Source of the DNA: Candidatus Azobacteroides sp.
GTDB lineage: Bacteria > Bacteroidota > Bacteroidia > Bacteroidales > Azobacteroidaceae
NCBI GenBank assembly: GCA_009778655.1
Contig: WRFZ01000174.1
Location: 1 to 47,913 of the forward strand
Direction: 5' to 3'
DNA length: 47,913 nucleotides
The position numbers were made by a program, and so were the translations under genes. Below are positions 263 through 44,090 of this stretch, piece by piece. Below the pieces are notes generated by a model. The model saw nothing but the letters and a program-made list of their open reading frames with translations. It did not search any database and had not been told where the DNA came from. Every line of letters starts with the position of its first letter. The first letter of the stretch is position 1.

Positions 263-871
263 TGGCTGACCCTACTGGTACAAAATTGGGAAAATAGTTC
301 ATGGGTAAACTCCGACCAAACCACTCGTACCTATGATTCCGACCAAAATTTGCAAACCGAACTGCTCCAAAATTGGGAAAATAATTCATGGGTAAATTTT
401 AGACAACGCCGGATGATTTATGATGAAAACGGGAACGGCACATCTGCAGAATGGTGGGAATGGAAAAATGAAAGTTGGCAACCCTCAAATTTTGGCGCTG
501 TGCTCAGCTACATAAATTTATATTTATACTACAATAATATGCAAAGTTCTTTTGGCGGACAAGGCTGTGATAGAATGACGGCATCTTATATAAAAGTGTC
601 CGACCTCCGGACCGGTATGGAGCCGGTTGCAACGCCGGAACTAAATGCGGTCTCCATTTATCCCAACCCGACCACGGGAGAATTACGAATCAAAAATTAC
701 GAATCGGGAATTAAGGATATTCAAATTTTTGATGCGATAGGGAATAAGCTTCCGTTACGTATGGAAACGGCGAAAGATGCGGTTGATATTTCTCACCTGT
801 CGCCCGGAATGTATTTTGTACAGATAACAACCGAAAAAGGCGTTGTTACGAAAAAGATAGTAAAAATGTAG
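2..871 (+). CDS. T9SS-secreted YD-like repeat protein, 5'-truncated
   Basis: This is the C-terminal 289 residues of a surface or secreted protein; the reading frame is open to the left edge, so the first GTG is a repeat codon and not a real start. Five 29-residue units fill residues 1 to about 145, each with the pattern NELxQNWxNNSW, then VNSxQT, then TYDSDNN. The YDxxN signature recalls YD/RHS repeats, but I cannot show homology. A Trp/Asn-rich linker follows (SWQPS), then a type A T9SS sorting domain from about residue 215: YPNPTTGELRI, the PGMYFVQI motif and a basic KKIVKM tail. It would cross the inner membrane by Sec and the outer membrane by T9SS. The next gene is a close paralogue. The substrate or binding partner is unknown; adhesin or matrix protein is a guess. 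Confidence 0.85.
   Translation: MLNELHQNWVNNSWVNSDQTTRTYDSDNNVLNKLRQNWVNNSWENSDQTARTYDSDNNVLNELRQNWINNQWVNSGQTALTYDSNNNWLTLLVQNWENSSWVNSDQTTRTYDSDQNLQTELLQNWENNSWVNFRQRRMIYDENGNGTSAEWWEWKNESWQPSNFGAVLSYINLYLYYNNMQSSFGGQGCDRMTASYIKVSDLRTGMEPVATPELNAVSIYPNPTTGELRIKNYESGIKDIQIFDAIGNKLPLRMETAKDAVDISHLSPGMYFVQITTEKGVVTKKIVKM
680..714 (+). repeat. Heptanucleotide repeat inside sorting-domain codons
   Basis: Five seven-base units: GAATTAC, GAATCAA, AAATTAC, GAATCGG, GAATTAA. They encode the ELRIKNYESGIK part of the T9SS sorting domain. Because 7 is not a multiple of 3, the peptide repeat closes every 21 bases. Confidence 0.6.
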
Positions 872-874
872 GGG

Positions 875-900
875 GACCCCGCATCAAGCGTGGGATGACG
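875..900. repeat. Possible dispersed palindrome-like element
   Basis: The gap between the two repeat-protein genes holds a GC-rich segment reading CCCCGCATCAAGCGTGGGA followed by TGACGG. It looks like the dispersed elements of the form CCCGCATCAAGTGCGGGATGACG seen in many bacterial genomes. One copy only in this window, so the assignment is tentative. Confidence 0.3.
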
Positions 901-953
901 GATTGGTTTATACGAGGAAGTAACTATTATTAAACGAAACAAATTACTTTATC

Positions 954-2426
954 ATGAAAAAAATAGTATCATTAAGCATATCGCTCATTATGGCAGGATT
1001 TTTCACTGTCACCGCACAAAATAATCTTATGGTGCAAGAGAGATTGCAACGACCCAATGCAAGCTTTGAATATTCGAAATTTGAAAAATCGAAATTGCCG
1101 GCACCGAAAAAAACAAATTTCGGACAGGATTGGTGGGAGCCGGATACGGTATATGTCTTTTTTAATGATTCCGAAACAGAGAGGGGCGTGCGAAATATTT
1201 TCGAATACAACTCGCAAGGATTATTGGCGGTAAGCATCAGACAAATCCCGGAAAATAATTCATGGGTAAATTCTTCATCATGTATTTATACTTACGATTT
1301 AAACAATAATCTGCTTACCGAACTGGACCGGAGTTGGAGAGATAATTCATGGGTAAATAGCTATTTATATACCTATACTTATGATCCGGACAATAATTTG
1401 CTTACCGAATTAGAAGAATCCGAGGGAATAAACCGCTATTTATCTTCTTATACCTACGATTCCAACAATAATGCACTGACTTTTTCACGCCAAATATGGT
1501 ATAATAATTCATGGATGTATATTTTACGAGATACTTCTACTTATGATTCCGACAATAATTTGTTAACTGAATTACGTGAATTTATGATAAATGGCGTATT
1601 GAAAAATGACTATTTATATATTTATACCTATGATTCCGACAATAATGTGTTAAATGAATTACGCCAAAATTGGGAAGATGATTCATGGGTAAATTCCGAT
1701 CAAACTGCTCGCACCTACGATTCCAATAATAATGTGTTAAATGAATTACACCAAGGATGGGAAAATGATTCATGGGTAAATTCCGATCAAACGGCTCGCA
1801 TCTACGATTCCGACAATAATGTATTAAATGAATTACGCCAAAATTGGGAAAATGATTCATGGGTAAATTCCGGTCAAATTGCTCGTACCTACGATTCTGA
1901 CAATAATTTACTCGTTGAACTACAGCAAAATTGGAGAAATAATTCATGGGAAAATTCAATCCGATACTTGATGACTTATGATGAAAATGGGAATGGGACA
2001 TTGGCAGAATGTTGGTGGTGGGTAAATGATAGTTGGCAACCATCGTCAAATATTATATTCAGCTACCCAACTCTGTGGCTGTATTATAATAACATGCAAA
2101 GCGTTTTTGTGGGGTCGGGTTGTGATAGAATGACCGCATCCTACGTAAAAGTGTCCGACTTCAGTACCGGGGTGGAGCCGCTTGCAACACCGGAATCAAA
2201 CGCTATCTCCGTTTATCCCAACCCGACTACGGGAGAATTACGAATTAAGAATTACGAATCGGGAATTAAAGATATTCAAATTTTTGATCTGATTGGAAAT
2301 AAACTTCCGTTACGTATGGAAACCGGAAGAGATGCGGTTGATATTTCTCACCTGCCGCCCGGAATGTATTTTGTACAAATAATAACCGACAAAGGCGTTG
2401 TTACGAAAAAGATAGTTAAAATGTGA
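954..2426 (+). CDS. T9SS-secreted YD-like repeat protein, full length
   Basis: A 490-residue paralogue of the preceding truncated gene, complete. It starts with a Sec signal peptide (MKKIVSLSISLIMAGFFTVTAQ, cut expected after TAQ). Nine repeat units of about 25 to 30 residues run from about residue 80 to 345. The N-terminal units have diverged (YTYD, LLTELD), while the last four are near-identical 29-mers of the type in the neighbour. The last 75 residues are a type A T9SS sorting domain (YPNPTTGELRI, PGMYFVQI, KKIVKM) almost identical to the neighbour's. The region between repeats and sorting domain holds a conserved SGCDRMTASY segment. Tandem duplication with homogenisation of C-terminal units is the likely history. 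Function unknown; export by T9SS is well supported. Confidence 0.88.
   Translation: MKKIVSLSISLIMAGFFTVTAQNNLMVQERLQRPNASFEYSKFEKSKLPAPKKTNFGQDWWEPDTVYVFFNDSETERGVRNIFEYNSQGLLAVSIRQIPENNSWVNSSSCIYTYDLNNNLLTELDRSWRDNSWVNSYLYTYTYDPDNNLLTELEESEGINRYLSSYTYDSNNNALTFSRQIWYNNSWMYILRDTSTYDSDNNLLTELREFMINGVLKNDYLYIYTYDSDNNVLNELRQNWEDDSWVNSDQTARTYDSNNNVLNELHQGWENDSWVNSDQTARIYDSDNNVLNELRQNWENDSWVNSGQIARTYDSDNNLLVELQQNWRNNSWENSIRYLMTYDENGNGTLAECWWWVNDSWQPSSNIIFSYPTLWLYYNNMQSVFVGSGCDRMTASYVKVSDFSTGVEPLATPESNAISVYPNPTTGELRIKNYESGIKDIQIFDLIGNKLPLRMETGRDAVDISHLPPGMYFVQIITDKGVVTKKIVKM
1647..1907 (+). repeat. 87-bp tandem repeat, three near-identical coding units
   Basis: Units begin at 1647, 1734 and 1821 with an exact 87-base period. 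The same unit occurs in the upstream paralogue, which gives about 1.6 kb of separation for recombination between the two genes. Confidence 0.85.
2235..2269 (+). repeat. Heptanucleotide repeat inside sorting-domain codons
   Basis: Five seven-base units in a row: GAATTAC, GAATTAA, GAATTAC, GAATCGG, GAATTAA. This copy is more regular than the matching segment in the upstream paralogue (second and third units are intact). Confidence 0.65.
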
Positions 2427-2445
2427 GCTATTCGGTAAATGTTAT

Positions 2446-2485
2446 AAAAAAACTGTCAAAAGTTTCTCCTTTCGACAGTTTTTTT
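2446..2485. terminator. Bidirectional terminator between cargo gene and glgP
   Basis: ACTGTC (2452-2457) pairs with GACAGT (2474-2479). The stem is extended inward by AAAG/CTTT with one mismatch and outward by A6/T6. The T-run on each strand makes it a plausible intrinsic terminator for both convergent genes. Confidence 0.8.
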
Positions 2486-2500
2486 ATTGAAAGAGCGTCT

Positions 2501-5068
2501 TTATTTACTTAACCACCGCACGTAAGCAAAATCCATCCGATGAGGAAGGTTTTTGTTGTCGGGATAGATTCGCAATCCGAATTTGAATGTTCCGGCTTCG
2601 GTTGCGGTTAAATCAACGGCATAATATACTTTGGTTCCTTCGGTTTTAACTGCATACATCGGATGTATTTTGACCGTATCCCTGCCGGTGGCCGGATCGG
2701 TATAAAGCCGCACTATTTCTGCGCCGATATCGCCGGTCACTTCATGTTTGTCCAATACCAAAGTAGCTTTTACCTTGTCGCCGATTTCAATTCTCCGGTT
2801 AAACAATTTTTCGTCAAAATTAAATTCAAGCGCTTCAATCGAATCCCAATGAGCGGCCATATTTTCTTTCCATTGCGCTAATTCTTTTGCCAATGCAAAC
2901 GAATCCTTTTTCAAGTTCTGAGAACGGAGCGCTAATTTGTTGTAAAAGCGATCAATGTAATCGTCAAACATACGTTTGGTCGTATAATGAGGCGCAATTT
3001 GTGCAATGGAATTTTTGATGTACTGAATCCATTCGGGCGAATACCCTTTGCTGTTTTTGGCATAATACAAAGGGATGATTTCATTTTCCAACATGGAATA
3101 GATTGTAGCTGCATCCAATTGATCTTGAAACTCTTGATTATCATACGTGCGTTTTTCGGTCAACGCCCAGCCGGCGCCTTCGCGATAACCTTCGTACCAC
3201 CAACCGTCCAATACGGAAAAGTTCAAAACCCCGTTCATTTCCGCTTTTTCTCCGGAAGTTCCGGATGCTTCCAACGGGCGAGTCGGCGTGTTCAACCAAA
3301 CGTCCACTCCGGAAATCAATCGTTTCGCCAAGCGCATATCGTAGTTTTCGAGGAAAATGATTTTTCCCAGAAATTCCGGGCGACGGGAAATTTCAACAAT
3401 GTGTTTGATTAAACCTTGCCCGCCTCCGTCGGCAGGATGCGCTTTACCGGAATAAATGAATTGAACCGGATAATTGGGGTTATTTACAATTTTCGCCAAG
3501 CGGTCCAAGTTTGTAAACAACAGATGGGCGCGTTTGTAGGTTGCAAAACGGCGACCAAAGCCGATCAGTAGCGCATTCGGATTAATTTTTTCGAGGATGG
3601 ATATTACTTTTGACGGATCGCCTTGATTTTTCAGCCAATTGTCTTTGAATGATTCGCTGATGTGTTTTACCAAGCGTTTTTTCAGAATGATTCGGATGTT
3701 CCAAATTTCTTCATCCGGCGTTGCATAGATTTTTTTCCAGATTTCGGTATTGGATTGATCCCGATAGAAATTAGCTTCAAAATACTTTTCGTAAAAACGC
3801 CGCCATTCCGAAGCGGCCCAAGTAGGCATGTGTACACCGTTGGTTACATATCCGACATGCAATTCCGGAGCAAAATAACCTTTCCATATCGGGGCAAACA
3901 TCCGCTTGGAAACTTCGCCATGCAAGAAACTGACGCCGTTGGCTTCCTGACAGGTATTCAAAGCAAATACGCTCATACAGAATTTTTCGTTGCTTCCCGG
4001 ATGAGTACGTCCCATATCTATAAATTCCTGCCACGTAATTCCCAACTTAGAAGGATACTGACTCATGTATTTATTTAATAAGGGTTCTTCAAAATAATCG
4101 TGTCCCGCCGGAACAGGCGTATGGCAAGTATATAAAGCGGAAGCCCTTACTATTTCTATTGCTTCGTTGAAGCTCAATTGATCTTCTTGAATATAATCAA
4201 CCAAACGCTGTACATTGATAAATGCCGCATGACCTTCGTTGCAATGAAAAATCTGTTTCTTAATTCCCAATTTATTTAAGAGCATTATTCCGCCGATTCC
4301 CAGCAGGTATTCCTGTTTAAGACGGTTTTCATTATCTCCTCCGTACAGTTGGTGCGTAATGCCGCGATCCCAATCGCTATTTAAATCCACGTCAGTGTCT
4401 AAGAGATACAGCTTAACCCGTCCTACGTTTACCAACCACACATAAGCATGTACATGAAAATTATTGTAAGGAACCTCCAATATCATCGGCTTTTCGTCAG
4501 AATCCATCACTTGCTTGATAGGCAACTGATCAAAACGCTGAGATTCGTAGTTGGCAATTTGCTGACCGTCCATTGACAGGGTTTGAGTAAAATAGCCGTA
4601 ACGGTACAAGAATCCGACCGCTGTTAAATCTATATTCATATCGCTGGCTTCTTTGATGTAATCGCCGGCCAGAATGCCCAAACCGCCCGAATATATTTTT
4701 AAGATATTCGTTAATCCGTATTCCATACTGAAATAAGCAATGGAAGGTACATCTTTTCGAACCGGCTCTTCCATATAGGTTTTTAATTTCATATATACCT
4801 GTCGGACGGTATCCATCAATGTTTTATCTTCAGCGATAGCTTGCAAGCGGCTCTGAGAAAGTTGTTGCAGGAGTAATACCGGATTTCCTTCCGTTTTATT
4901 CCAGAGGTCTTTATCAATAGCTGAAAACAATTCCGTGGCTTCGTAATTCCATACCCACCATAAATTATAGGCGATTTCTTCCAAAATTTTCAATTCTTGG
5001 GGTACTTTTGAATGAATGTTGCTTTCGACCCATACCGGGTCATTCGCATAATTTGTTTTAATTTTCAT
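2501..5068 (-). CDS. glgP: Alpha-glucan (glycogen) phosphorylase, DUF3417 type
   Basis: Degrades glycogen or maltodextrin by phosphorolysis to glucose 1-phosphate in the cytoplasm, using pyridoxal phosphate. The 855-residue protein starts with the DUF3417 region typical of this short phosphorylase class ([14 protein letters not shown] near residue 30), followed by the GT35 catalytic part ([23 protein letters not shown]). The PLP lysine should be Lys608 in [12 protein letters not shown], aligned with the GNMK lysine of classical phosphorylases. The TAA stop of the upstream glycogen synthase overlaps its ATG by one base (TAATG), so the two are translationally coupled. Opposite-acting enzymes in one operon is the normal Bacteroidales arrangement; a GH57 enzyme often found with them is absent here. 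Confidence 0.95.
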
Positions 5069-6732: not shown

Positions 6733-6758
6733 AGAGCTTCAAAATTCAAACCAAGCTG

Positions 6759-6766
6759 CAAAGATA
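6759..6766 (-). promoter_or_regulatory. Promoter core for glycogen synthase operon
   Basis: TATCTTTG on the minus strand matches the Bacteroidota -7 consensus TAnnTTTG, 27 bases before the synthase ATG. Confidence 0.6.
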
Positions 6767-6829
6767 GCATTTTTTTTCTTATACGGAAGCAGTATTTTTT
6801 TTCTTAACTTGGATTTAACTGAAAAAAAA

Positions 6830-6859
6830 TTGGAAGCATCCGGAAAATGACTATATTTG
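6830..6859 (+). promoter_or_regulatory. Promoter for acyltransferase-nitrilase pair
   Basis: TTG (6830-6832), 19 bases, then TATATTTG (6852-6859) matches the Bacteroidota TTTG/TAnnTTTG promoter. It leaves a leader of about 100 bases before the ATG at 6966. Confidence 0.6.
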
Positions 6860-6959: not shown

Positions 6960-6965
6960 TAACGA

Positions 6966-8959: not shown

Positions 8960-8987
8960 GAATTATAAATTATAAATTATGAATTAT
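8960..8987. repeat. Heptanucleotide array downstream of queC
   Basis: Four units in a row: GAATTAT, AAATTAT, AAATTAT, GAATTAT. It lies between the queC stop and the queF promoter core. The same heptamer type fills the gap on the other side of queC. Confidence 0.8.
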
Positions 8988-9021
8988 GATGTCGCTGCGG
9001 GCTTGACTCGCAATCCGCTGT

Positions 9022-9693
9022 TTATCGTTCACCCGATTGTATAGATTTTTCGTATTCCTTCAATCCTTCGTTCCGCAGTTTGCAGGAAGGGCAGTGTCCG
9101 CAACCGTCGGCAAGGATTCCGTTATAGCAGGTCAAGGTTTTATTTTTGACGATTTCGAAAACGCCCAATTCGTCGGATAAAGCCCAGATTTCCGCTTTAT
9201 TCAACCACATGAGCGGAGTATGAATAATAAATTGTTCATCCATCGCGAGGTTCAAAGTCGTATTCGCCGAGCGGATAAAGGTGTCGCGACAATCGGGATA
9301 GCCGCTGTAATCGGCTTGAGAAACGCCGGTAACCAGATTTTGAATCCCATGCGTTCGGGCGATTACCGCACCGAAAGTGAGGAAAAACAAGTTGCGACCC
9401 GGAACGAAGGTGTTGGGATAGGAATTTTCCGGTTTCTCGCAATCCATTGTCATCGCAAGATTGGTTAATGAGTTGTCGGCTAATTGGCTGATTATTGATG
9501 CATCGAGTACTTGAAACGGGACATTTGCTTCCGCTGCAAGCCCGCGAGCGACTTCAACTTCGTTCGAATGTCGTTGCCCGTAAGTAAAACACAGGGTTCG
9601 AACTTCGTTGAAACGACGGAGGGCCCAATACAGACAAGTCGTTGAATCTTGTCCTCCCGAAAAAAGTACGAGCGCCGATGAATTGTTTGTCAT
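9022..9693 (-). CDS. queC: 7-cyano-7-deazaguanine synthase
   Basis: ATP-dependent conversion of 7-carboxy-7-deazaguanine plus ammonia to preQ0, the substrate of QueF next door. The 223-residue protein carries the PP-loop SGGQDS at residues 12-17 and the zinc site with Cys189, Cys198, Cys201 and Cys204 (GCGHCPSC). It lies 44 bases after the EnvC-like gene; that entire gap is an array of seven-base repeats, so its ribosome-binding region is made of repeat. queD and queE are not in the window. Confidence 0.95.
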
Positions 9694-9696
9694 AAT

Positions 9697-9738
9697 GAAT
9701 TATGAATTATGAATTATAAATTATGAATTATGAATTAT
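9697..9738. repeat. Heptanucleotide array filling envC-queC gap
   Basis: Exactly six units (42 bases): GAATTAT three times, AAATTAT, GAATTAT twice. The array starts three bases from the queC start codon and its last base is the first base of the EnvC-like stop codon (9738-9740). It therefore is the whole intergenic region. Confidence 0.9.
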
Positions 9739-10970
9739 TATTTTATCCAAGATAAAGGATCCAATTTGGTTTGCTCTTTCCAGATTTCGAAATGCAATAA
9801 AGTGGAGTTTCCTTTTTCCCCGTCTGTATAAATCTTTCCGAGCGCTTGCCCGGTGTTTACTTTATCTCCTTGTTTGACATATACTTGATCTATATTGGAA
9901 TACAACGTCAAATAATTACCGTGCCGGACGATAATGGAATTATTGTATCCCGGAAGAATAAATATACGGGAAACGACTCCGTTGAAAACGGCCGTTGCCT
10001 CATTGCCGGAAGTGGTTTCAATATCAATACCGTTATTATTGGTCACAATTTTCGATAATTCTTTGTGTTGATGTACGCCGAAATATCCCACGATTTTATA
10101 ATTTCCTTTCAACGGGAAAGGAAGTTTGCCTTTATTCCCGGCGAAGGTGGAAGATAACGTTCGCTCGCTTTCGGTCATCGCATAACCGCCTTTTACTTCC
10201 GCCGTTCGATTTTCTCCGCTTTCTGATTTAGCCGCCTTTTCGGATTTCAGAACTTCTTCCGCAATGATTTTTTCGATTTGTCGGTTTAAGGCATTCGCTT
10301 GTTTTTCTTTTTTTGCTAAATCCTCTTGAAGCGCTTTTTTGTTTTTTTCAAGCGTTTTTATTTCGCCTTTTTTACTTTCTTCTTCTTCGCTTAATTGTTT
10401 TTCTTCCGATTGCCGCGTACCTAAAAGTTTCAGTTTATCGCTTCGGTTTGCTAACAGTTGAGCCTTTTCCAAGTTGATTGTATTTTGTTTTTCGGTAATT
10501 TCTTCCGCCTGTTTTTTCTGCCATCCGGAATATGCTTTTAAATACATGATTCGGTGAAACGATTGAGTAAAATTTTGAGAAGACAGAATGAATAACAGAT
10601 AATCCGAACTGTTTTTGTGTAAGTACATTTTCCGTATCGAAGCGGCATAATGCTGCTTTTTCGCATCTAAGTTTTCTTCTAATGTTTTGACTTGCATTTC
10701 TTTAAAACCGATTTCTTCATCCAATGAGATGATTTCTTGGTTCAACAGTTGAATGATTTTCTTTCTCGAATTGATTTGTTGAACCAATAAGTTCAAGCGA
10801 TTCAGCGCATTACTCGTAGTCAGCTTATTTTCCTTTAGTAACCGGTTGGTTTCTTCGATTTCCGCTAAAGTCGCCAATCGTTCTTTTTCTAATTCCCGAA
10901 CTTGTACGGACTGCTGAGCCGACAACGAAAAAACACAGAACAGCAAATACACAAGCAGCTTGACTTTCAT
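9738..10970 (-). CDS. EnvC-like murein hydrolase activator, coiled coil plus degenerate LytM
   Basis: Predicted periplasmic regulator of cell-wall amidases in cell separation. A signal peptide (MKVKLLVYLLFCVFSLSAQ) precedes a long Lys/Glu-rich coiled coil (about residues 20-240) and a C-terminal M23/LytM domain (about 285-410). The domain lacks key zinc-site residues: the HxGxD motif reads NNGID and the HLHFE motif reads LLHFE. It should therefore be a non-catalytic activator like E. coli EnvC. Its ATG overlaps the TGA of the upstream DUF4292 gene by one base (TGATG), so the two are coupled. Confidence 0.88.
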   Translation of the reverse strand: MKVKLLVYLLFCVFSLSAQQSVQVRELEKERLATLAEIEETNRLLKENKLTTSNALNRLNLLVQQINSRKKIIQLLNQEIISLDEEIGFKEMQVKTLEENLDAKKQHYAASIRKMYLHKNSSDYLLFILSSQNFTQSFHRIMYLKAYSGWQKKQAEEITEKQNTINLEKAQLLANRSDKLKLLGTRQSEEKQLSEEEESKKGEIKTLEKNKKALQEDLAKKEKQANALNRQIEKIIAEEVLKSEKAAKSESGENRTAEVKGGYAMTESERTLSSTFAGNKGKLPFPLKGNYKIVGYFGVHQHKELSKIVTNNNGIDIETTSGNEATAVFNGVVSRIFILPGYNNSIIVRHGNYLTLYSNIDQVYVKQGDKVNTGQALGKIYTDGEKGNSTLLHFEIWKEQTKLDPLSWIK

Positions 10971-11815
10971 CAGAACGATTGGATCAGTTTGATTATTTGT
11001 TCAATTTCGATGGGTTGATAACCGTTTGGAATCGTAGTATCCGGTTCAAAGTAGGTATCAATATCCACGGTATTAAATGTCAGATTCAAAGTAATCAAAT
11101 CATTCGGAACGGTTAATTCCATCGTCATCTTCATCGGAAATAACCGGTTGTTGGATGCTAATCCGAAATCTTTGTACAACCAGTTCATGTTGGTTTCTTT
11201 TTTATCCTTATACATTTCCGTTTGAATAATCCGATTACTGTAATCGCTGATAAAATCGTAATTAATCCCTTGATTATCAGAATTATTCAATCGAACGAAA
11301 AATTTATCTTCATTCCAACGGAAAGTATTGTAATCATTTGAAGATATGGACGATTTCCCGGCTATAAATAATTGATTCGTAATCAAAGCTTGCAGGTTGT
11401 AAAAATCGAAATCGAAGGTTGCTTTGCTTTTAATGGTTTGCATGGATTCCGAAACATATCGTTTGTTATGTCGGTCTATAATCGTGATTTGTTCCGGCGT
11501 GATGTTTATTCGAGCCACTTCGGTTCCCAAAATCGGAATCCGCAAAGAAAGTTGGATAATTTTGTCTTTGATGATTCGCAATTGGGCATTGGCGGAAACG
11601 GTACTTTTTTTCATTCCGGGCTTGATGGAAAAACGCAACGACGAAGATAAGGTGTTGAATGGAATAGCTTGATATTGAATAGATTTTATTCGTTCTTCTT
11701 TTCCCATTTCGGATAAAGCGACAGTGGCGACCGGATGCGTCGTTTTACAACCGCCGAATAAAATGATCATTCCCGTTAAAAGAAGCGCACAGTTGTATTT
11801 CCTATTTCGATTCAT
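10970..11815 (-). CDS. DUF4292 family lipoprotein
   Basis: A 281-residue lipoprotein with a lipobox ending in Gly-Gly-Cys near residue 23 (LLLTGMIILFGGC). The rest is a beta-rich LolB/LolA-like outer-membrane fold as expected for DUF4292 (SIKPGMKKSTVSAN, then LRIPILGTEVARI). The family has no proved biochemical role; a part in handling lipoproteins or LPS at the periplasmic face is only a structural guess. It overlaps the 3' end of the TPR gene by 14 bases and the EnvC-like gene by one, so the three form one operon, an order conserved in Bacteroidota as far as I recall. Confidence 0.85.
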   Translation of the reverse strand: MNRNRKYNCALLLTGMIILFGGCKTTHPVATVALSEMGKEERIKSIQYQAIPFNTLSSSLRFSIKPGMKKSTVSANAQLRIIKDKIIQLSLRIPILGTEVARINITPEQITIIDRHNKRYVSESMQTIKSKATFDFDFYNLQALITNQLFIAGKSSISSNDYNTFRWNEDKFFVRLNNSDNQGINYDFISDYSNRIIQTEMYKDKKETNMNWLYKDFGLASNNRLFPMKMTMELTVPNDLITLNLTFNTVDIDTYFEPDTTIPNGYQPIEIEQIIKLIQSF

Positions 11816-13532
11816 AATACATTTTGTTTTCTATTTTCTTTTCCAACAGACTTGTATCTTCTCCCATTTCTTTGATTTCCAACGCTTTTTCCCATTGTTC
11901 AACGGCTTTATCCGTATTTCCCGTTTTGTAAAGAATATCGCCGTAATGCTCCAGAATATCGGAACTTTGTCCTCCGTTTGAGATCGCGCTTTCAATATAA
12001 AATTTGGCCAAGGTATAATTCCCTTTTTGGAAGAACACCCAAGCATAAGTGTCTATGTAAGTGGGTTCGTTGGGTTGCAATTTTATACATTTGGAGATCA
12101 TTCGCTCCGCTTTATCCAAATCTTCCTTGTCTAAACTTAAAAAATAAGCGTAATTGTTAAGAACCACGATGTTATTTTCATTATATTCCAACGATTTATC
12201 GTAAGCTTGATAGGATTCTTTCTTTTGATTCATTTGGTGATACAAATCGCCGATTATACCGTAGAACCTCGAAAGGGATGGTTTGTCATCCTCCGGAATA
12301 ACGGGGATTCCTTCTTGGAAAACAGCCAGCGCTTCCGGGTAGTTTTTTAACTGATAATAGGCGGAACCTTTATAATAATAAAATTCGAAATCATCGGGAA
12401 AAACAGCTAAAGCCGAATTACAAATCCGGATAATTTCATCCGCATTCTCCTCTCGGATAGCAATATTCATTAGTAGGCGCCAAGCAAGCGAGTTTTCCGG
12501 ATTGGCTTCCGTAACCAATTGGAATTGAACCCGGGCCTCTTCCCATTTACCTTGGGATACCAGAAATTGACCATACATCATATTGAGTTCTTTTTCTTGG
12601 GAATATTGTTCCATCAGCGTTTTAAACAAAGAATCGGCCGCTTCGACCTCTTTTTGGTTCGACAACCGGTCTCCGAGGTATTTTCCGAGAATGGAAATTT
12701 TGGTATCCACATCCAATACGGGATTTTTCAATGCGGATTCAATTTCTTGTACCGCCGCTTCCGTATCGCCTTTTTTCTCGTAATAACCGGCCATGGAAGC
12801 AACGTAGTAAGGACTTTGCGGATCAATTTTATGCGCTTTCTCATAATAGGTCAACGCTTTGTCTGAATCGCCGTTTTCTAAATAAAAATCGCCGATTAGG
12901 ATTTGATATTTTGTTTCCGACGGATTTTTAGCGGCTAATTTCTCAAGTTCGTTGATTGCGTTTTCCTTTTGTTCCACTGCGAGATACAGCTTGTATTTTT
13001 GCATAGAAAGCGCTTCGCTCATTCCGATGCTATTCTCTAAAGCGTCGAGCGATTGAATGGCTTTGTCTATTCGGTTTTGTTTCAAATACAAATCACTGAG
13101 ATAAAAATGCAATTCCGATTTTTCCGGATGTTCGGCCGCCAATTGTTCATAAAGCTCGGTGGCTCCGGAAAGGTCTCCTGTTTCCCGGTAAATTTCCGCC
13201 AAAGAAACTTTGTATTCAAAATTTTCAGAATCATAGATCACCGCTTTTTTAAGCGCTTCGATGGCTAAAGAATCTTCTTGCAAAAACAGATAATAGTTCG
13301 CCATCAAAGCCAATGCCGACGAAGATGTCGAATCAATTTTCAACGCGTATTGCAACGCGGCGTAAGCTTCGCCGTGTTTGTCGCTCTGTTTAAGGCGCAA
13401 GGCCTCTAAGTAAAAATAATCGAATTTTTTCTTGGTTCGATATACGGAATCTTCCACCGTCGTGCGACTGTCTTCTGCCGATACCGCTAAGCAAAAACAA
13501 GTGAAAAACAATAAAATGATTGTCTGTTTCAT
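11802..13532 (-). CDS. Exported TPR-repeat protein
   Basis: A 576-residue protein with a signal peptide (MKQTIILLFFTCFCLAVSA) and at least ten tetratricopeptide repeats, for example ALTYYEKAHKIDPQSPYY, AWRLLMNIAIREENADE and SYQAYDKSLEYNENN. TPR arrays bind peptides and act as scaffolds. There is no lipobox and no second domain. It lies 18 bases after dut and overlaps the DUF4292 lipoprotein gene. Its place before two envelope genes suggests an envelope-assembly scaffold, which is inference from context. Confidence 0.85.
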   Translation of the reverse strand: MKQTIILLFFTCFCLAVSAEDSRTTVEDSVYRTKKKFDYFYLEALRLKQSDKHGEAYAALQYALKIDSTSSSALALMANYYLFLQEDSLAIEALKKAVIYDSENFEYKVSLAEIYRETGDLSGATELYEQLAAEHPEKSELHFYLSDLYLKQNRIDKAIQSLDALENSIGMSEALSMQKYKLYLAVEQKENAINELEKLAAKNPSETKYQILIGDFYLENGDSDKALTYYEKAHKIDPQSPYYVASMAGYYEKKGDTEAAVQEIESALKNPVLDVDTKISILGKYLGDRLSNQKEVEAADSLFKTLMEQYSQEKELNMMYGQFLVSQGKWEEARVQFQLVTEANPENSLAWRLLMNIAIREENADEIIRICNSALAVFPDDFEFYYYKGSAYYQLKNYPEALAVFQEGIPVIPEDDKPSLSRFYGIIGDLYHQMNQKKESYQAYDKSLEYNENNIVVLNNYAYFLSLDKEDLDKAERMISKCIKLQPNEPTYIDTYAWVFFQKGNYTLAKFYIESAISNGGQSSDILEHYGDILYKTGNTDKAVEQWEKALEIKEMGEDTSLLEKKIENKMYYESK

Positions 13533-38185: not shown

Positions 38186-39381
38186 GCGTTATCAATCTTA
38201 AAAAAAATATTATACAAACCATTGCCGGCAAGTTGATCATTTTGCTGCTGAACTTTGCTGTTGTGATACTCTCGACACGCCTGTGGGGAACGGAAGGACG
38301 CGGCGCTATTGCTTTGTTTATGGCAAACTTGAGCTTAATATCAAGTGTTACTAATATTTTTACGGGCAGTAGCGTTTCTTATTTTTTGTCGAAATCCGGT
38401 CTTTCAAAATTGGTATTACAAGCTTATTTATGGGTTTTTACAGCGGCTGCGATTTTAGGAATTGTATTTCATCTGTATGATTATTCCACTCCGTCGCTGC
38501 TTTTATTCATAGTCGCTGTTTTGGTTGGCTTTACGGCGTTTCATTCTTCCGTATTTATCGGAGATCAACGAATCGGATATTATAATTTGATTACGGTTAT
38601 TCAGCCGGTTTTTCAAATAGGGGCCATGTTGTTTTTCTATTATCGGGTTGAAAAATCATATTTTGCATACTTTTATGGAATGATGACGTCGTATGCTTTC
38701 GTTTTTATTATTTGCAAAATATTAACCGAAAAAATACATGGAAAAGTTTTCTATCATTTGGATAAACCGACTGTAAAAAATACTTTTTTGTTTGGTTGGC
38801 AGGTTGAATTGAGTAATTTTTTGCAATTCTTTAACTATCGGTTGAGTTTTTATTTCTTGAATTATTTTGTGGGAACTGCATCATTAGGTGTATTTTCGGT
38901 TGGCGTAACATTATCGGAAGCCATTTGGATTGTGAGCCGCAGTATTTCGTTGGTGCAATATTCGAATGTTGTAAAACAAGGCGATACGGAAGACTCGCGA
39001 AATGAAACCAAGATTACCGCAAAATACAGTCTTTTCATTTCTTTGTTTTGCTTGGTATTTGTTTTATGTTTACCCGAACAAGTTTTTTCATTTGTTTTCG
39101 GAAACGGATTTGAAGGCGTAAAACAAGTGATTGTTTTGCTTTCGCCGGGTATATTGGCTATGGCGGTATCGAATGTATATGGGAATTATTTTTCAGCCAT
39201 CGGCCGGGTTAAGATTTTGATTTTGAAATCGGCCATCGGGGTAGCAGCTACTGTGGGATTGTCGGTTTGGTTAATTCCGACTTTGCAAGTACAGGGAGCT
39301 TGTGTTGTAAATGCAGGTTCGTATATTATTTCGTCAATAATTTTGTTTTGGTTTTTTTATCGAAAGACCGACCGGAATTAA
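38182..39381 (+). CDS. Wzx-like polysaccharide flippase
   Basis: A 399-residue integral-membrane protein with about 12 hydrophobic helices, of the MOP superfamily that flips lipid-linked oligosaccharides across the inner membrane. The opening IQTIAGKLIILLLNFAVVILS, followed by TRLWGTEGRGAIALF, is the Wzx/RfbX signature, and PGILAMAVSNVYGNYFSAIGR is the conserved segment before the last helices. The start is the ATG at 38182, overlapping the glycosyltransferase stop by four bases. No Wzy polymerase is in the window. Confidence 0.85.
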   Translation: MSVINLKKNIIQTIAGKLIILLLNFAVVILSTRLWGTEGRGAIALFMANLSLISSVTNIFTGSSVSYFLSKSGLSKLVLQAYLWVFTAAAILGIVFHLYDYSTPSLLLFIVAVLVGFTAFHSSVFIGDQRIGYYNLITVIQPVFQIGAMLFFYYRVEKSYFAYFYGMMTSYAFVFIICKILTEKIHGKVFYHLDKPTVKNTFLFGWQVELSNFLQFFNYRLSFYFLNYFVGTASLGVFSVGVTLSEAIWIVSRSISLVQYSNVVKQGDTEDSRNETKITAKYSLFISLFCLVFVLCLPEQVFSFVFGNGFEGVKQVIVLLSPGILAMAVSNVYGNYFSAIGRVKILILKSAIGVAATVGLSVWLIPTLQVQGACVVNAGSYIISSIILFWFFYRKTDRN

Positions 39382-39399
39382 TGATTCGCACGGACAAAT

Positions 39400-40605
39400 T
39401 CATTTCTTTTTTATGATATTATCCGATATATTAGGAAGAAAGACCGCCAAGATTCCCAGTAAAGGCAAAAATGAACAAATGGCATATACGGTATCAATAC
39501 CCCATCGGTCGGCAAATTTTCCTAAAATTGCAGCGCCGAGTCCCCCCATTCCAAAGGAAAATCCGTAAAAAAGTCCCGATATCATTCCGAATTTTCGAGG
39601 CATTAATTCTTGGGCAAAGACTAAAATGGCAGGAAAAGCCGACGCTAAAATTAATCCGATAATAACGGTTAATACTCCTGTCCAAAGCAAATTGGCATAA
39701 GGCAGCATCAAGGTAAACGGAGCTACTCCCAAAATAGAAAACCAGATTACCCGTTTACGCCCGATACGGTCGCCGATAGGACCTCCTATCAATGTCCCGA
39801 CAGCTACGGAAAACAGAAAAAGAAAAAGCATATATTGGGCATGATGCATGTTTATTTGGAACTTATGGATCAAGTAGAACATATAATAGCTGTTTAAACT
39901 GCTTAAATAGAAGTTTTTTGAAAAAACGAGCAGCAACAAAATAATGATAGTCAATATAATTTTGCGATGAGAAAATTGACTTTCGGGTTGAATATTCCGT
40001 TGCACCTTTTGGAAAGAAGAGACATGCTCTCGATACCAAAAACCGACTTGCAGCAATACAATCATTGCCAAAAATGCAACCGGTGAAAACCAACTGACAG
40101 CAGTTTTACTGTGTGGAATAACAATCCATGCGGCTAATAAAGGTCCCATAGCTGCTCCGGCATTACCTCCTACTTGAAAAATGGATTGAGCTAATCCGAA
40201 CCGACCTTCTGAAGCGATCCGAGAAATTCGTGACGCCTCCGGATGAAAAATGGATGACCCCATTCCCACCATCATTGCCGCCATCAGCAGGTAAGGATAA
40301 CTTCCGGCAAAAGCAAGCATTATGATACCGACCAATGTACATGCCATACCGATTACCAATGAAAACGGTTTGGGGTGTTTATCGGTATAAATACCTACAA
40401 TCGGTTGGAGCAGTGAGGCCGTGATTTGATACGAAAGGGTTATAAGTCCTATCTGACCGAAACTGAGATTAAAATCAGCTTTTAACATGGGATATACAGC
40501 CAGAATAAGCGATTGCATCGTATCATTCAGAAAATGAGAGAAACTGATTGAAGCTAATACTTTATATTGCGGGTGAATAGCAGAGGGTTCTTTTTTATTT
40601 TGCAT
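39400..40605 (-). CDS. MFS transporter, fosmidomycin-resistance (Fsr) like
   Basis: A 401-residue major facilitator with 12 predicted helices. The Fsr branch is suggested by SHFLNDTMQSLILAVYPML, the SIFHPEASRISRIAS segment and the QSIFQVGGNAGAAMGPLLAA motif. Efflux of a drug or metabolite is expected; the substrate is not shown. The frame is open to 40632, but that codon lies inside the promoter core 40630-40637, so the ATG at 40605 (MQNKKEPS) is the start. Convergent with the flippase, 18 bases apart. Confidence 0.88.
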   Translation of the reverse strand: MQNKKEPSAIHPQYKVLASISFSHFLNDTMQSLILAVYPMLKADFNLSFGQIGLITLSYQITASLLQPIVGIYTDKHPKPFSLVIGMACTLVGIIMLAFAGSYPYLLMAAMMVGMGSSIFHPEASRISRIASEGRFGLAQSIFQVGGNAGAAMGPLLAAWIVIPHSKTAVSWFSPVAFLAMIVLLQVGFWYREHVSSFQKVQRNIQPESQFSHRKIILTIIILLLLVFSKNFYLSSLNSYYMFYLIHKFQINMHHAQYMLFLFLFSVAVGTLIGGPIGDRIGRKRVIWFSILGVAPFTLMLPYANLLWTGVLTVIIGLILASAFPAILVFAQELMPRKFGMISGLFYGFSFGMGGLGAAILGKFADRWGIDTVYAICSFLPLLGILAVFLPNISDNIIKKK

Positions 40606-40629
40606 ATAACTACAACTGATTTTGACCGA

Positions 40630-40637
40630 CAAAGGTA
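40630..40637 (-). promoter_or_regulatory. Promoter core for MFS transporter
   Basis: TACCTTTG on the minus strand, 25 bases before the ATG at 40605. Confidence 0.6.
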
Positions 40638-40696
40638 CAAGAAAAAGTCGGATATAAGAAAATTTATTGCTGGTCGGATAAATTTATTGCGGTATC

Positions 40697-40729
40697 TTTG
40701 AAATGTTTCTACTTTATTTTCTACCTTTG
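40697..40729 (+). promoter_or_regulatory. Promoter for DUF1573 gene and meaB
   Basis: TTTG (40697-40700), 21 bases, TACCTTTG (40722-40729): a full match to the Bacteroidota promoter. It lies downstream of the longest possible start (40698), which is therefore excluded. Confidence 0.7.
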
Positions 40730-40757
40730 TACTCAAAATGAATTTTCTAAAAAAATT

Positions 40758-41825
40758 ATGAATATGAAACGCATTTATTTATTATTAACAAGTTTTGTCT
40801 TATTTTGCGGTGGAGTGGGCGCGCAAAATGAAAAAATAAGTATTAACGAAACCGACCACAATTTCGGAGTAATCGGTGAAAAAGACGGAAATGCCGCTTT
40901 TGATTTTATTCTGACGAATAATTCGAATGAATCGTTTGTAATAACCAAAGCAACGGCTTCATGCGGATGTACAACTCCTATTTGGACGAAAGAACCGATC
41001 GAACCCCGAAAAACCGGAAAAATTTTCGTCAGCTATAATCCGGTGAATCGGCCCGGCTCTTTTACCAAATCCATTACGGTCTATACCAGCCAGTCGCCGA
41101 CGCCCATTCGTTTGACAATACGAGGAGAAGTAGTCCAAGGTAAAATTAAAATAAATCCGGAAGAAGCATATCCGGTTGCGATGGGTAATTATCTTTTGAA
41201 ATCGAAAGAATTGAATTTCGGACGAGTCACGTGGAAAGAAGCAAAAACCATTCGGTTGGAAGTGTTTAATAATTCCGATCAGCCGATTACCCAAAGGATA
41301 TTGAAATTACCGAAGTACTTATCGGTCACTTTTAATCCGGCAGTTATACCTGCAAAAAAGGCAGGCGTTATTGATGTGAATTTCAATGCGCAGGATGGCG
41401 ATTCTTATGGAAATTTATCCGGCGATATTACTCTTCTGATTAACGAAACTCGTCAGTCTTTTCCTTATTCGGCAACCGTTTTGGAAGATTTTTCTCAATG
41501 GACATCCGCAAAAAAAGCCGATGCGGGAAAAATTAACGTGAGTACTTCCGAAATCAATTTCGGTAATTTCAGTTCGGGAACCGGTCGAACATTAAAAATA
41601 TCCAATTCGGGAAAATCAGTGTTGAACATACGCGCCATTCAATCGTCCGATCCGTCAATTACCGTATCTAAAACCCGGTTCAGCATCAATCCGGGAGAGA
41701 TAACCGAGATTAAAGTAAATGCGGATAATAAGAAAATCCCGTCGAAACTTTCATCAACCTTGTCTATTATGACGGATGATCCCGACATGCCGATTTATGA
41801 AATATCCGTCTTAGCAAATAAATAA
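40758..41825 (+). CDS. Exported DUF1573 (ASH-like) domain protein
   Basis: A 355-residue secreted or periplasmic protein with a signal peptide (MKRIYLLLTSFVLFCGGVGAQ; ATG at 40758 or 40764) and immunoglobulin-like beta domains. DUF1573 is seen at residues about 25-125 (NETDHNFGVIGEKDG, ATASCGCTTPIW, FVSYNP), and a second domain of the same type starts near 250 (SEINFGNFSSGTGR). The CGC motif is a family hallmark. Function unknown. It is followed 12 bases later by the meaB-like gene. Confidence 0.85.
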   Translation: MNMKRIYLLLTSFVLFCGGVGAQNEKISINETDHNFGVIGEKDGNAAFDFILTNNSNESFVITKATASCGCTTPIWTKEPIEPRKTGKIFVSYNPVNRPGSFTKSITVYTSQSPTPIRLTIRGEVVQGKIKINPEEAYPVAMGNYLLKSKELNFGRVTWKEAKTIRLEVFNNSDQPITQRILKLPKYLSVTFNPAVIPAKKAGVIDVNFNAQDGDSYGNLSGDITLLINETRQSFPYSATVLEDFSQWTSAKKADAGKINVSTSEINFGNFSSGTGRTLKISNSGKSVLNIRAIQSSDPSITVSKTRFSINPGEITEIKVNADNKKIPSKLSSTLSIMTDDPDMPIYEISVLANK

Positions 41826-41837
41826 ACTCGATACGGC

Positions 41838-42935
41838 GTGGAACATCCGGAAAATGACCCCAAGTATGTAGGATTGAACGTGAATAAAGGTATTTCGCGG
41901 CCTCCGGTTATTAATCCTTATTTGAAGAGTGCGAGAAAAAAACGAGGGAATTATTCTCCGGGCGAATATATCGAACAAATCCTAAAAGGAAATATTATTT
42001 TCTTAAGTCAAGCGGTAACGCTTTTGGAAAGTCGGAAAAACGAACATCAATCCATAGCGCGGGAAATCATCGAAAAATGTTTACCTTTTTCCGGGAAATC
42101 GGTGCGAATCGGGATAACGGGAGTTCCCGGCGCCGGCAAAAGTACTTCCATTGACGCATTCGGAACCTATGTGATTGATCAACGTCATCGAAAATTAGCT
42201 GTTCTGGCTATTGATCCGAGCAGCGAACGCTCCAAAGGAAGTATATTGGGAGACAAAACCCGGATGGAAGAACTTTCTCGCAATCCTCATGCTTTTATAC
42301 GACCCTCTCCTACCGCCGGTTCGTTGGGAGGGGTAGCCCGTAAAACGCGGGAAACTATTATTTTATGTGAAGCCGCCGGATTCGATACCGTTTTTGTGGA
42401 AACAGTCGGCGTGGGGCAGTCGGAAACGGCTGTTCATTCCATGGTGGATTTTTTTCTTTTAATCCAAATATCCGGCGCCGGCGATGAATTGCAAGGAATT
42501 AAGCGCGGAATCATGGAAATGGCCGATGGGATTATCGTGAATAAAGCCGATGGGAGTAATATAGAAAAAGCGAATTTAGCGGCGGCGCAATATCGGAATG
42601 CCTTGCAACTTTTTCCGCCGCCTGCATCTGGTTGGACTCCGCGAGTATTAACCTATTCCGGATATTATCAAATCGGAATATCCCAAATATGGGATATGAT
42701 TGATGAATATATCTCATTCGTTAAAACCAACGGTTATTTTGACTTTCGAAGAAATTCGCAAGCTAAATATTGGATGTATGAAAGCATCAATGAACAACTG
42801 AAAAATCATTTTTATCAATCGCCTAAAATAAAGAAGGAATTGGCAATTAAAGAATCCAAGGTAATTCATTCGGAAATAAGCTCATTTCAAGCCGCCCGAC
42901 AAATGCTTGAAATGTATTTTAAAGAACGCGATTGA
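41838..42935 (+). CDS. meaB: MeaB/ArgK-type GTPase, methylmalonyl-CoA mutase chaperone
   Basis: G3E-family GTPase that loads and protects the B12 cofactor of methylmalonyl-CoA mutase. The 365-residue protein shows Walker A GVPGAGKS at 95-102, DPSSERSKGSILGDKTRM, the switch region FVETVGVGQSE and the NKAD base motif. It starts with GTG at 41838. Usually the gene sits beside the mutase; the mutase is not in this window. The pairing with a DUF1573 exported protein has no obvious metabolic reason. Confidence 0.92.
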   Translation: MEHPENDPKYVGLNVNKGISRPPVINPYLKSARKKRGNYSPGEYIEQILKGNIIFLSQAVTLLESRKNEHQSIAREIIEKCLPFSGKSVRIGITGVPGAGKSTSIDAFGTYVIDQRHRKLAVLAIDPSSERSKGSILGDKTRMEELSRNPHAFIRPSPTAGSLGGVARKTRETIILCEAAGFDTVFVETVGVGQSETAVHSMVDFFLLIQISGAGDELQGIKRGIMEMADGIIVNKADGSNIEKANLAAAQYRNALQLFPPPASGWTPRVLTYSGYYQIGISQIWDMIDEYISFVKTNGYFDFRRNSQAKYWMYESINEQLKNHFYQSPKIKKELAIKESKVIHSEISSFQAARQMLEMYFKERD

Positions 42936-42958
42936 TTTTTTGATGAATCGTAATCAAT
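42931..42958. terminator. Short inverted repeat over two convergent stop codons
   Basis: ATTGATT (42931-42937) pairs with AATCAAT (42952-42958), 14-base loop. The stem overlaps the stop codons of meaB (+) and the dehydrogenase (-). Weak AT stem, so only a possible terminator. Confidence 0.35.
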
Positions 42959-44090
42959 GTATGTGAGCCTTACGCAACCGATAAATCCGTTCGATAATAT
43001 CAATCACTTTGTAACCTTCGCTTGCGTTGGTCGTGATTTCTTTTTCTTTGTTATTCAGCACTTTTACGACATTATCAATGACTAAATGGTGATTTTGCGC
43101 AGAGCCTTTGTAAGCTCCGTAATCGTTTCCCGGATTGGTTGGAGGCAGGACCGGTAAGGTATAATCTTTGACGTGGCAATAAGTGATTTCATTCATATAT
43201 TGTCCGCCGATTTTAATTGTTCCGTTTTCCGCAAGAATCGTAACCGAACTTTCAAAATTCGTGTCGTAAACGGATGTTGAATAATTAAAAATACCCGATC
43301 CGCCGTTCACAAAATCAAATGTGACCACTCCCGAATCTTCAAAATCCGTCAAGGTTTGATGATTAAAATCCATGAAACGGGCGCTAATGTTTTGAATATC
43401 ACCGAATAACCAATACATCAAATCTATGAAATGCGAAAATTGAGTAAACAAAGTTCCTCCGTCAAGCGCTTTATCTCCGTGCCAAGAGCCGGGTTGATAG
43501 TAACGGGCATCGCGATTCCAGAAGCAGTTAATTTGTATCCAAAACAATTTTCCCAACCGTCCGGAGTCAATCGTTTCCTTAATCCAAACAGAGGGCGGAG
43601 AATAGCGGTTTTGCATTACGCAAAAAACTTTTTTGTCGAATTTTTCCGATGCGGAAAGAATTTTTTCGGCGTCTTCCGTATTTAGCGCCATCGGTTTTTC
43701 AATGACTGTGTGATGACCGGTTTCCATTCCCCGTATAGCCATTTCCGCATGTAAACCGTTCGGAACGCAAATATTCAGAACATCAAAAGGAATGTCGGAT
43801 GATAGCAAAGATTCGAGGTCAGAGAAATAAGGGGTACACGGTCGCTCGGTGCACGGTGCGGGGTACACGGTACACGAATCAAGACCTAAACAGTTTGGAG
43901 ATAAAATGTCGCAAACAGCAACCAATTCCGCTTCCGGATTTCGTTGAATCATTTCTATATGACGTTTCCCGATGTGTCCGCAGCCCACTACCGCAAACTT
44001 AATTTTACGGCGACCGGCGACCGGGAACCGGGAACCGGAAGCCTGTTGCCTGTTGCCTGCTGCCTGTTGCCCTATATTATCTGTTTCCAT
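42954..44090 (-). CDS. Gfo/Idh/MocA dehydrogenase, WlbA/WbpB-like, with repeat-derived insertions
   Basis: NAD(P)-dependent sugar oxidoreductase. The Rossmann motif VVGCGHIGKRH starts at residue 34, EKPMALNTEDAE gives the catalytic-lysine motif, and NRYSPPSVWIKETIDSGRLG plus FWNRDARYYQPGSWHGDKALDGG resemble WlbA/WbpB, which oxidise UDP-GlcNAcA at C3 on the way to diacetamido-uronic acids. Residues 8-28 and 72-86 are encoded by seven-base tandem repeats and look foreign: homologues normally begin a few residues before the Rossmann motif. The ATG overlaps rmlB by 14 bases. Activity could be affected, but the frame is intact. A different UDP or dTDP sugar substrate is possible. Confidence 0.85.
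   Translation of the reverse strand: METDNIGQQAAGNRQQASGSRFPVAGRRKIKFAVVGCGHIGKRHIEMIQRNPEAELVAVCDILSPNCLGLDSCTVYPAPCTERPCTPYFSDLESLLSSDIPFDVLNICVPNGLHAEMAIRGMETGHHTVIEKPMALNTEDAEKILSASEKFDKKVFCVMQNRYSPPSVWIKETIDSGRLGKLFWIQINCFWNRDARYYQPGSWHGDKALDGGTLFTQFSHFIDLMYWLFGDIQNISARFMDFNHQTLTDFEDSGVVTFDFVNGGSGIFNYSTSVYDTNFESSVTILAENGTIKIGGQYMNEITYCHVKDYTLPVLPPTNPGNDYGAYKGSAQNHHLVIDNVVKVLNNKEKEITTNASEGYKVIDIIERIYRLRKAHIH
43833..43875. repeat. Heptanucleotide array inside dehydrogenase (codons 72-86)
   Basis: Plus-strand units: GGTACAC, GGTCGCTC (8 bases), GGTGCAC, GGTGCGG, GGTACAC, GGTACAC. The array encodes SCTVYPAPCTERPCT on the minus strand, in the loop between the second Rossmann strand and the conserved YFSDLESLL. 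Confidence 0.8.
44008..44069. repeat. Two abutting heptanucleotide arrays at dehydrogenase N-terminus
   Basis: Plus-strand units: CGGCGAC twice and CGGGAAC twice (44008-44035), a six-base CGGAAG, then CCTGTTG twice, CCTGCTG and CCTGTTG (44042-44069). They encode residues 8-28 of the dehydrogenase (QQAAGNRQQASGSRFPVAGRR), immediately before the Rossmann fold. Confidence 0.9.

Follow-up and report, generated by a model that had tools for sequence, protein, structure and literature searches.

Heptanucleotide arrays of a Candidatus Azobacteroides genome: probable whole-unit slippage, and a facing polarity that slippage alone leaves unexplained

Introduction

Heptanucleotides are the commonest repeat class in most of the repeat-rich genomes surveyed (PMC4679880). 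The present study concerns tandem arrays with a seven-base unit in a 47,913-base stretch of Candidatus Azobacteroides sp. (contig WRFZ01000174.1, positions 1 to 47,913 of the forward strand; hereafter the window), in its host assembly GCA_009778655.1 (G000; 2,913,889 bases in 182 contigs), and in relatives and other phyla. The order Bacteroidales, to which the host is assigned, also includes Paludibacter propionicigenes.

The long simple-sequence repeats of Mrazek 2007 (as described in PMC4679880 and PMC4692102) are likewise dominated by a unit of 7 and scattered over phyla, and polymerase slippage over about 7 nt was proposed as their cause; the arrays described here add in-register changes of word and a facing polarity across units and genomes. 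Arrays of the heptamer TAACTGA are known from Beggiatoaceae, cyanobacteria and five Bacteroidetes, including P. propionicigenes (MacGregor 2015, PMC4679880). The initial annotation of the window, which knew of no heptamer repeats in Bacteroidales, therefore has to be corrected on this point. The TAACTGA arrays are mostly intergenic and close to gene ends, with some in open reading frames (ORFs). As in the present arrays, their sets are split by related 7-mers. Their strains differ by 7-nt indels, to which the unit steps at a Microcystis site (below) correspond; two cyanobacteria differ by indels in 7-nt increments. One unit reportedly prevails in the TAACTGA genome, where related heptamers are rarely repeated; whereas GAATTAT is dominant here, together with others. 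The six arrays of the window do not have the unit TAACTGA, and 1.245 Mb of host DNA contain a single AACTGAT array.

The GGGAATC repeats of Xanthomonas and the GGGGA(C/T)T repeats of Nostoc (Rehm 2015, PMC4692102) are also heptamers, with lengths that vary between relatives. Two Xanthomonas genomes reportedly contain 70 and 75 convergent pairs of one and the same heptamer, a geometry identical to that of the facing arrays reported below, which had therefore already been seen; few paired repeats were reported in Nostoc. These units form G-quadruplexes, whereas the main unit of the window has one G. The short tandemly repeated repetitive (STRR) sequences of Calothrix, three tandem heptanucleotides in one cyanobacterial genome, are alike by description. 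Moreover, the bacterial enzyme DRT10 makes short tandem-repeat DNA via template resetting (Tang 2025, PMC12632851); its units are of 9 nt and variable and its cDNA is made by a reverse transcriptase, whereas G000 has no RVT_1 match.

Results

Excess of period 7 in the window and the host genome

The heptamer arrays are a strong genome-wide feature and belong to a known class. An excess of period 7, a confinement to intergenic DNA and differing strings at orthologous sites were all observed in the present analysis. Exact-match runs of at least 11 were counted in the window at periods 4 to 15, with 30 dinucleotide shuffles as the control. Five runs were found at period 7, four at period 14 (its double) and none at the other periods; the shuffles gave a mean of 0.03 runs at period 7. 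All six arrays of the initial annotation were present, with offsets of a few bases, by direct reading and Tandem Repeats Finder (TRF), and period 7 is far above chance.

The host genome was sampled over 1,244,913 bases (the own sample: the window and 60 further stretches, mostly from longer contigs). With a threshold of 10 matched bases, exact runs numbered 139 at period 7, against 4, 2, 14, 7, 6, 7, 7 and 23 at periods 4, 5, 6, 8, 9, 10, 11 and 12, respectively; the genome-wide excess on which the annotation had staked its case is thus present. Period 7 also dominates smaller samples of 447,913 bases (with Markov-3 controls) and 844,913 bases, and in the former a strong excess among periods up to 30 was found at 7 and its multiples alone. 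Two 50 kb stretches of E. coli MG1655 were without runs at all periods between 4 and 12. In G000, 172 matches to the pattern GAATTAYGAATTAYGAATTA were found (overlaps counted), and 0 to its reversed control.

The main unit in the own sample is AATTATG (85 of the 125 runs that reach 11 matched bases), among 18 unit classes; a common unit length with differing unit sequence, as first noticed in the window, holds throughout the genome. Most merged arrays (89 of 98) are mostly non-coding in a sample that is 91.4% ORF (minimum length 90 aa), with coding status taken from simple ORF calls and not from a trained gene finder. Like the heptanucleotide long simple-sequence repeats, these arrays show units of 5-11 nt above random, with 7 the commonest, and are mostly intergenic.

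Arrays and genes in the window

The arrays of the window and the genes around them are as follows.

680..714, + strand: degenerate heptamer array, AATTACG AATCAAA AATTACG AATCGGG AATTAAG, in frame within ORF 2-871, in its type IX secretion system (T9SS) type A sorting domain; encodes ELRIKNYESGIK
2235..2269, + strand: degenerate heptamer array, homologous to array 680..714, at the matching position of the T9SS sorting domain in the paralog, ORF 954-2426
8960..8987, + strand: intergenic array GAATTATAAATTATAAATTATGAATTAT; G-bearing strand on +; abuts the palindrome below
8991..9019, no strand: palindromic sequence like repetitive extragenic palindromes (REP-like), with a TGCGGGCTTGACTCGCA core; from a motif scan, edges set by eye; the G strand of array 8960..8987 aims at it
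9022..9693, - strand: queC-like gene (PF06508), between two intergenic arrays
9695..9738, + strand: intergenic array, 6.3 copies of ATGAATT; fills the gap from the queC start to the stop of the M23 peptidase gene
9738..10970, - strand: M23 peptidase gene (PF01551), adjoining array 9695..9738
42954..44090, - strand: Gfo/Idh/MocA oxidoreductase gene with two in-frame heptamer strings, at sites variable among relatives
43833..43875, - strand: degenerate GGTACAC array in the loop of the Gfo gene after CDIL; encodes CTVYPAPCTERPC; 73% matches
44008..44075, - strand: compound GC-rich array near the start of the Gfo gene; nine complete words in a single seven-base register, with six different words among them

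On the gene strand the last array reads ATAGGGC AACAGGC AGCAGGC AACAGGC AACAGGC TTCCGGT TCCCGGT TCCCGGT CGCCGGT CGCCG. The initial annotation had called the six arrays unrelated, which is overstated. The arrays at 680, 2235, 8960 and 9697 form a single unit family (GAATTAC, GAATTAT and AATTATA; that is, GAATTAY and close variants), and those at 43833 and 44008 share one Gfo/Idh/MocA gene; four of the six lie inside genes. ORF 2-871 and ORF 954-2426 are paralogs with a T9SS C-terminal signal (Por_Secre_tail), and the arrays 680-714 and 2235-2269 are not independent, since they are the same stretch of this signal. TRF reported the former solely as a 14-base unit and scored a 14-base unit highest for the latter. 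Tandem 87-base repeats were also reported by TRF at 1-398 (4.6 copies) and 1545-1957 (3.8 copies); they lie in two adjacent paralogs, each with a T9SS sorting domain, and encode a recurring segment of the YDSDNNVLNELRQNW type.

Facing polarity of paired arrays

The G strand was defined as the unit strand with more G than C, and neighbouring arrays of opposite polarity within 200 bp were taken as pairs. Runs whose unit has as many G as C were excluded (30 of 156 in the own sample, 47 of 106 in Microcystis and 127 of 299 in a global set). The global set comprises 80 listed loci that were all fetched for a GAATTAY array, as were many of the relatives' stretches; it was separated after the result had been seen, and one Sphingobacterium locus also belongs to it. 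The G strand came first, so that the arrays face each other, in 12 of 12 pairs of the own sample, 10 of 10 of the relative G010, 5 of 5 of other relatives, 3 of 3 of Microcystis and 2 of 2 of Sphingobacterium. Facing pairs therefore number 32 of 32 outside the global set, 22 of 30 within it and 54 of 62 combined; no opposite-polarity pair was found in the Planktothrix stretches. A facing polarity as a rule over units and phyla is not stated in the accessible portions of the literature searched, the searches not having been aimed at polarity.

The contexts of the 32 facing pairs were codirectional (21), convergent (6), divergent (4) and inside an ORF (1), and in many of them both outer edges lie at most 30 bases from a gene end. 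Inverted GAATTAY pairs within 300 bp were facing rather than opposed by 20:1, the opposed one being in the global set. In 16 facing pairs the lengths of the two arms are correlated (r=0.52), and the spacers between facing arrays differ from site to site, as judged by eye. At one junction in G061 a direct AATTATGAATTCATAATT palindrome was seen.

Single arrays were oriented outward versus inward from genes by 51:26 in the own sample, 15:4 in other relatives, 54:37 in the global set and 9:12 in G010; because of G010, the gene-end rule for single arrays is a tendency and not a law. Background inverted repeats outside arrays comprised 51 G-first, 34 C-first and 57 neutral cases in the own sample, and 14:7 in Microcystis. 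This skew has the same sense but is too weak to cause 32:0. A selective cause of the facing order, either avoidance of stray start codons or a benefit from terminators, was also rejected as sufficient, since this order holds in convergent and divergent contexts too.

Register kept without identical words

A chain was defined as five or more copies of one trinucleotide, spaced by exactly one period, with less than 75% agreement between neighbours at the other bases, and all DNA was scanned. The own sample contains 52 chains at period 7 and 0-3 at periods 5, 6 and 8-12. The corresponding numbers at period 7 and at other periods were 43 and 0-2 in G010, 22 and 0-2 in Microcystis, and 52 and 0-4 in the global set; Markov-3 controls gave 0-1, apart from period 12 in Microcystis, where they gave 2. 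Many chains are ordinary arrays with few substitutions; others alter several bases at once, such as CTATACT CTATACT CTAATAA CTACACT.

Relatives, other phyla and viral contigs

The exact string GAATTATGAATTATGAATTA was found in 8 of 33 other genomes of the genus and 2 of 24 other members of the order (11 of 58 including the host). It occurs 168 times in G000, 0-29 times in the genus, and 37 and 9 times in two order members; the reversed control gave a single match, in G017. Among 395 Bacteroidota genomes, 34 (own included) contain (GAATTAY)3, and one (G451) contains its reversed control. Forty-four genus loci chosen by gene and not by repeat contain 12 runs at period 7, against 0-5 at other periods, and 4 anchored chains, against 0-2.

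In the GTDB-species collection, at least 111 stretches contain the longer string (GAATTAY)5. The titles among the matches listed (80 loci) include Bacteroidetes, Cyanobacteria, Lentisphaerae, Akkermansia, Treponema, Chitinispirillaceae, Chloroflexi, Gammaproteobacteria, Ignavibacteria, Cloacimonetes and one Shapirobacterium; contamination is possible for these loci, as many are metagenome-assembled genomes. The genus and order loci have 43 unit classes and Microcystis has 25, with 3 in common against 1.28 expected (P=0.14). The common classes include AATTATG, the top class of the genus and order loci, and AACTGAT, the top class of Microcystis. A unit repertoire common to phyla was considered as proof of a sequence-specific source and rejected, the overlap being not significant. 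Among IMG/VR viral contigs (L374-L462), (GAATTAY)4 was found in 38 stretches and (TAACTGA)4 in 30. Two permuted controls gave 0 and 0, whereas the reversed control (YATTAAG)4 was found in 21 stretches, so that GAATTAY is not uniquely privileged there.

Period-8 runs also exist in the relatives (9, against 61 at period 7). In locus L096 (G019), at about 600-790, octamer arrays GTAGACRA face their complement in the same geometry as the heptamers, which indicates that the step is not strictly seven.

Orthologous sites in the genus

The queC flanks were compared among 30 genus loci, of which 21, own included, had a readable QueC. The flanks differ among these loci; the arrays are not fixed, as the initial annotation had expected. 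The host gene has (GAATTAT)-type arrays on both sides, and no exact array was found within 250 bases before QueC in the other 20 readable loci. AAAAACT arrays lie at or after the QueC end in L092-L094 and an AAAAAAG run in L095. In L096 a GTAATTC array (GAATTAY family) lies 226 bases past the QueC end, in addition to the facing octamers; L100 has two GC-rich arrays at or after the QueC end, and L110 has heptamer-like words before queC that are not exact repeats. No array was seen at the flanks in the remaining 13 readable loci. In L100 (G058), at about 759-779, TGCACCC heptamers stand at the start of the gene downstream of queC, where they would encode an N-terminal CTVHPAPC segment (by eye).

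The Gfo gene was matched in 36 of 38 genomes; 12 loci were fetched, 10 of them readable at the N-terminus and 9 included in the loop alignment. In the host the start of the gene (42954-44090) overlaps the end of the upstream gene. At the N-terminus G031 has no insert, and G000 has the nine words listed above. With words cut by eye, G015 reads GGAGAAC AGAGAAT GGAGAAT AAAGAAC and G004 reads CGCCGGG TACGAGG CAAAAGG TGCAAGG CGAAAGG. The loop after CDIL varies in length and wording, some orthologs having other heptamers or a shorter loop; exact heptamer runs occur there in G000, G015 and G004.

The genomes G018 and G061 (about 91% DNA identity) have AAAAGGT-type and AAAAGTT/AAAAACT-type units, respectively, at one site, and one array in common at another. 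An 830-base gene-bearing difference between them, with an array at its edge, was seen at L080 (G018) 11070-11900; two further differences nearby, of 321 and 628 bases, are without an array. No element was shown to move, and the mobile repeat system proposed for the window found no support.

Length change at a Microcystis site

One intergenic Microcystis site was read between fixed flanks in 11 of the 12 genomes searched, which gave 12 variants with lengths of 23 (four), 30 (two), 32, 45, 47, 52, 63 and 71 bases. The 7-mer variants differ by 7 (23/30 and 45/52) and the 8-mer variants by 8 or 16 (47/63/71). In L309, a stretch duplicated within G074, the two array copies differ by exactly two octamers (16 bases). 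The 23-base variants have zero to three copies of each unit, which may be regarded as seeds. With these unit-step lengths and seeds, slippage from seeds accounts for the length at this site, in line with the slippage that had been named as a possible mechanism. At a neighbouring site, (GAATTAT)n in G062 matches (GGGGTGT)n and octamers in G074.

REP-like palindromes and candidate enzymes

A REP-like motif lies within 120 bp of 14 of the 78 GAATTAY-family arrays of the own sample, whereas 119 of 3660 intergenic points drawn at random have one as close. The array aims at the palindrome in 13 of the 14 cases. These cases are not all independent, since some arrays share one palindrome, and the enrichment is exploratory, as the motif list was drawn up after examples had been seen. 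The palindrome family (TCATTGCGGGCTTGACCCGCAAT and GATCCCGCGTCAAGCGCGGGATGA types) was seen in L036, L069, L123, L125 and others; the own sample contains 42 motif clusters, 24 of them intergenic.

The transposase family Y1_Tnp has four matches in G000, and matches were found in 17 of the 38 genus genomes. RVT_1 (PF00078) was matched in 21 of the 38, with five matches in the array-rich G010. No RVT_1 match was found in the other 17, including the array-rich G000 and G017, in assemblies about 90% (G000) and 86% (G017) complete, where divergent reverse transcriptases could be missed. A resident reverse transcriptase as the generator is made less likely by this lack of matches in G000, G017 and 15 other genus genomes. 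The template-directed process with a 7-base step that the initial annotation had also considered may still find room in the in-phase word changes and the strand polarity; against it stands the lack of a match to this most obvious enzyme in G000 and G017.

Discussion

The arrays are probably best read as heptanucleotide simple-sequence arrays, mostly in non-coding DNA, that arise by slippage in steps of a whole unit, starting from short seeds at the site. These seeds, one or two copies long, would gain and lose whole units via slipped-strand mispairing in replication or repair, and the machinery of the lineage would strongly favour a step of seven bases. Selection would restrict the arrays mainly to short intergenic gaps; arrays in genes would persist where they are free of stops, keep the frame and lie in a loop or terminus that tolerates them, such as the T9SS signal and the loop and N-terminus of the Gfo protein. 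Seeds that form next to elements of the hairpin type, for example the REP-like palindromes, may be the origin of the facing polarity. In Microcystis, a pair of adjoining seeds can explain why units appear to switch. In the window's own lineage slippage is the presumed generator; confinement by selection seems plausible, and the number seven might reflect the replication machinery.

Several observations weigh against slippage as the whole account. All 32 pairs outside the global set are facing although slippage has no strand sense, and the chains of varied words peak at period 7 alone, whereas plain slippage gives identical units; facing polarity and in-register word change are unexplained by slippage alone. 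Moreover, the 32-base Microcystis variant equals, by arithmetic, the 23-base variant plus two octamers minus one heptamer, which is not a step within a single family, and the 45 and 52 variants have an altered prefix and so are not pure unit steps. The stepwise series itself comes from Microcystis; the own genus yielded few comparable sites.

The polarity could be explained if the arrays were expanded arms of hairpin elements, either REP-like or resembling miniature inverted-repeat transposable elements (MITEs), spread by a Y1 transposase like the REP-associated tyrosine transposases (RAYTs), with slippage lengthening the arms; a fixed orientation of the arms would give the facing order. The REP-like motifs near 14 of 78 arrays, their orientation in 13 of 14 cases, the Y1_Tnp matches of G000 and the correlated arm lengths are consistent with this proposal. 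It is nevertheless unlikely: 64 of the 78 arrays have no motif nearby, some of the 14 share one palindrome, the spacers look unlike from site to site, G018 has facing arrays without a Y1_Tnp match, and one F-REP-F case was seen. Alternatively, a polymerase working by a template or by iterative priming might add seven-base steps of the G strand to 3' ends at intergenic breaks or hairpins, and the joining of two such ends would leave facing arrays, like fused telomeres. The facing order, unbroken outside the global set across codirectional, convergent and divergent contexts, the outer edges close to gene ends, the register retained while words vary, the AATTATGAATTCATAATT palindrome at the G061 junction and the aim of arrays at REP-like palindromes all point this way. 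However, RVT_1 is unmatched in G000 and G017 (other enzymes were not searched for), the Microcystis seeds have 0-3 copies, the facing rule is not absolute in the 80-locus set (22 of 30), and single arrays are weakly outward in the own sample and not in G010; such end addition is therefore rather doubtful.

A selected function, with the arrays as binding or RNA-structure signals (translation control, terminators, G-quadruplexes or hairpins), appears very unlikely. Many arrays adjoin starts or stops, facing pairs could fold in principle, and translational control was proposed for TAACTGA by MacGregor (PMC4679880); whereas units and copy number vary between genomes with about 91-98% identical flanks, the facing order is kept in convergent pairs without a nearby start codon, a hairpin needs no such order, and in-frame strings in the loops of one enzyme gene are not regulatory. 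It is scarcely credible that low-complexity, AT-rich gaps yield the repeats unaided. Intergenic DNA is indeed AT-rich, mostly with a slight skew in the sense of the polarity; but dinucleotide shuffles and Markov-3 controls give about none and rule out composition or chance, 7 and its multiples alone stand out strongly up to period 30, and the inverted repeats outside arrays are biased just 51 to 34.

Whole-unit slippage from seeds thus remains the preferred explanation. A bolder proposal, which seems improbable at present, is that a polar process of synthesis or repair with a built-in seven-base step acts on intergenic DNA in several phyla. It would lay down non-identical heptamers in register, with the G strand running from the gene to the middle of the gap, so that paired arrays face; slippage would then adjust lengths only. 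The literature has long left open why many bacteria favour a repeat length of seven, and polarity and in-register word change are measurable marks for which a correct mechanism has to account. By altering the ends and loops of proteins without loss of frame, the arrays also act as an inexpensive supply of new peptide segments; annotators of such genomes should expect repeat-derived stretches such as ELRIKNYE or GNRQQASG.

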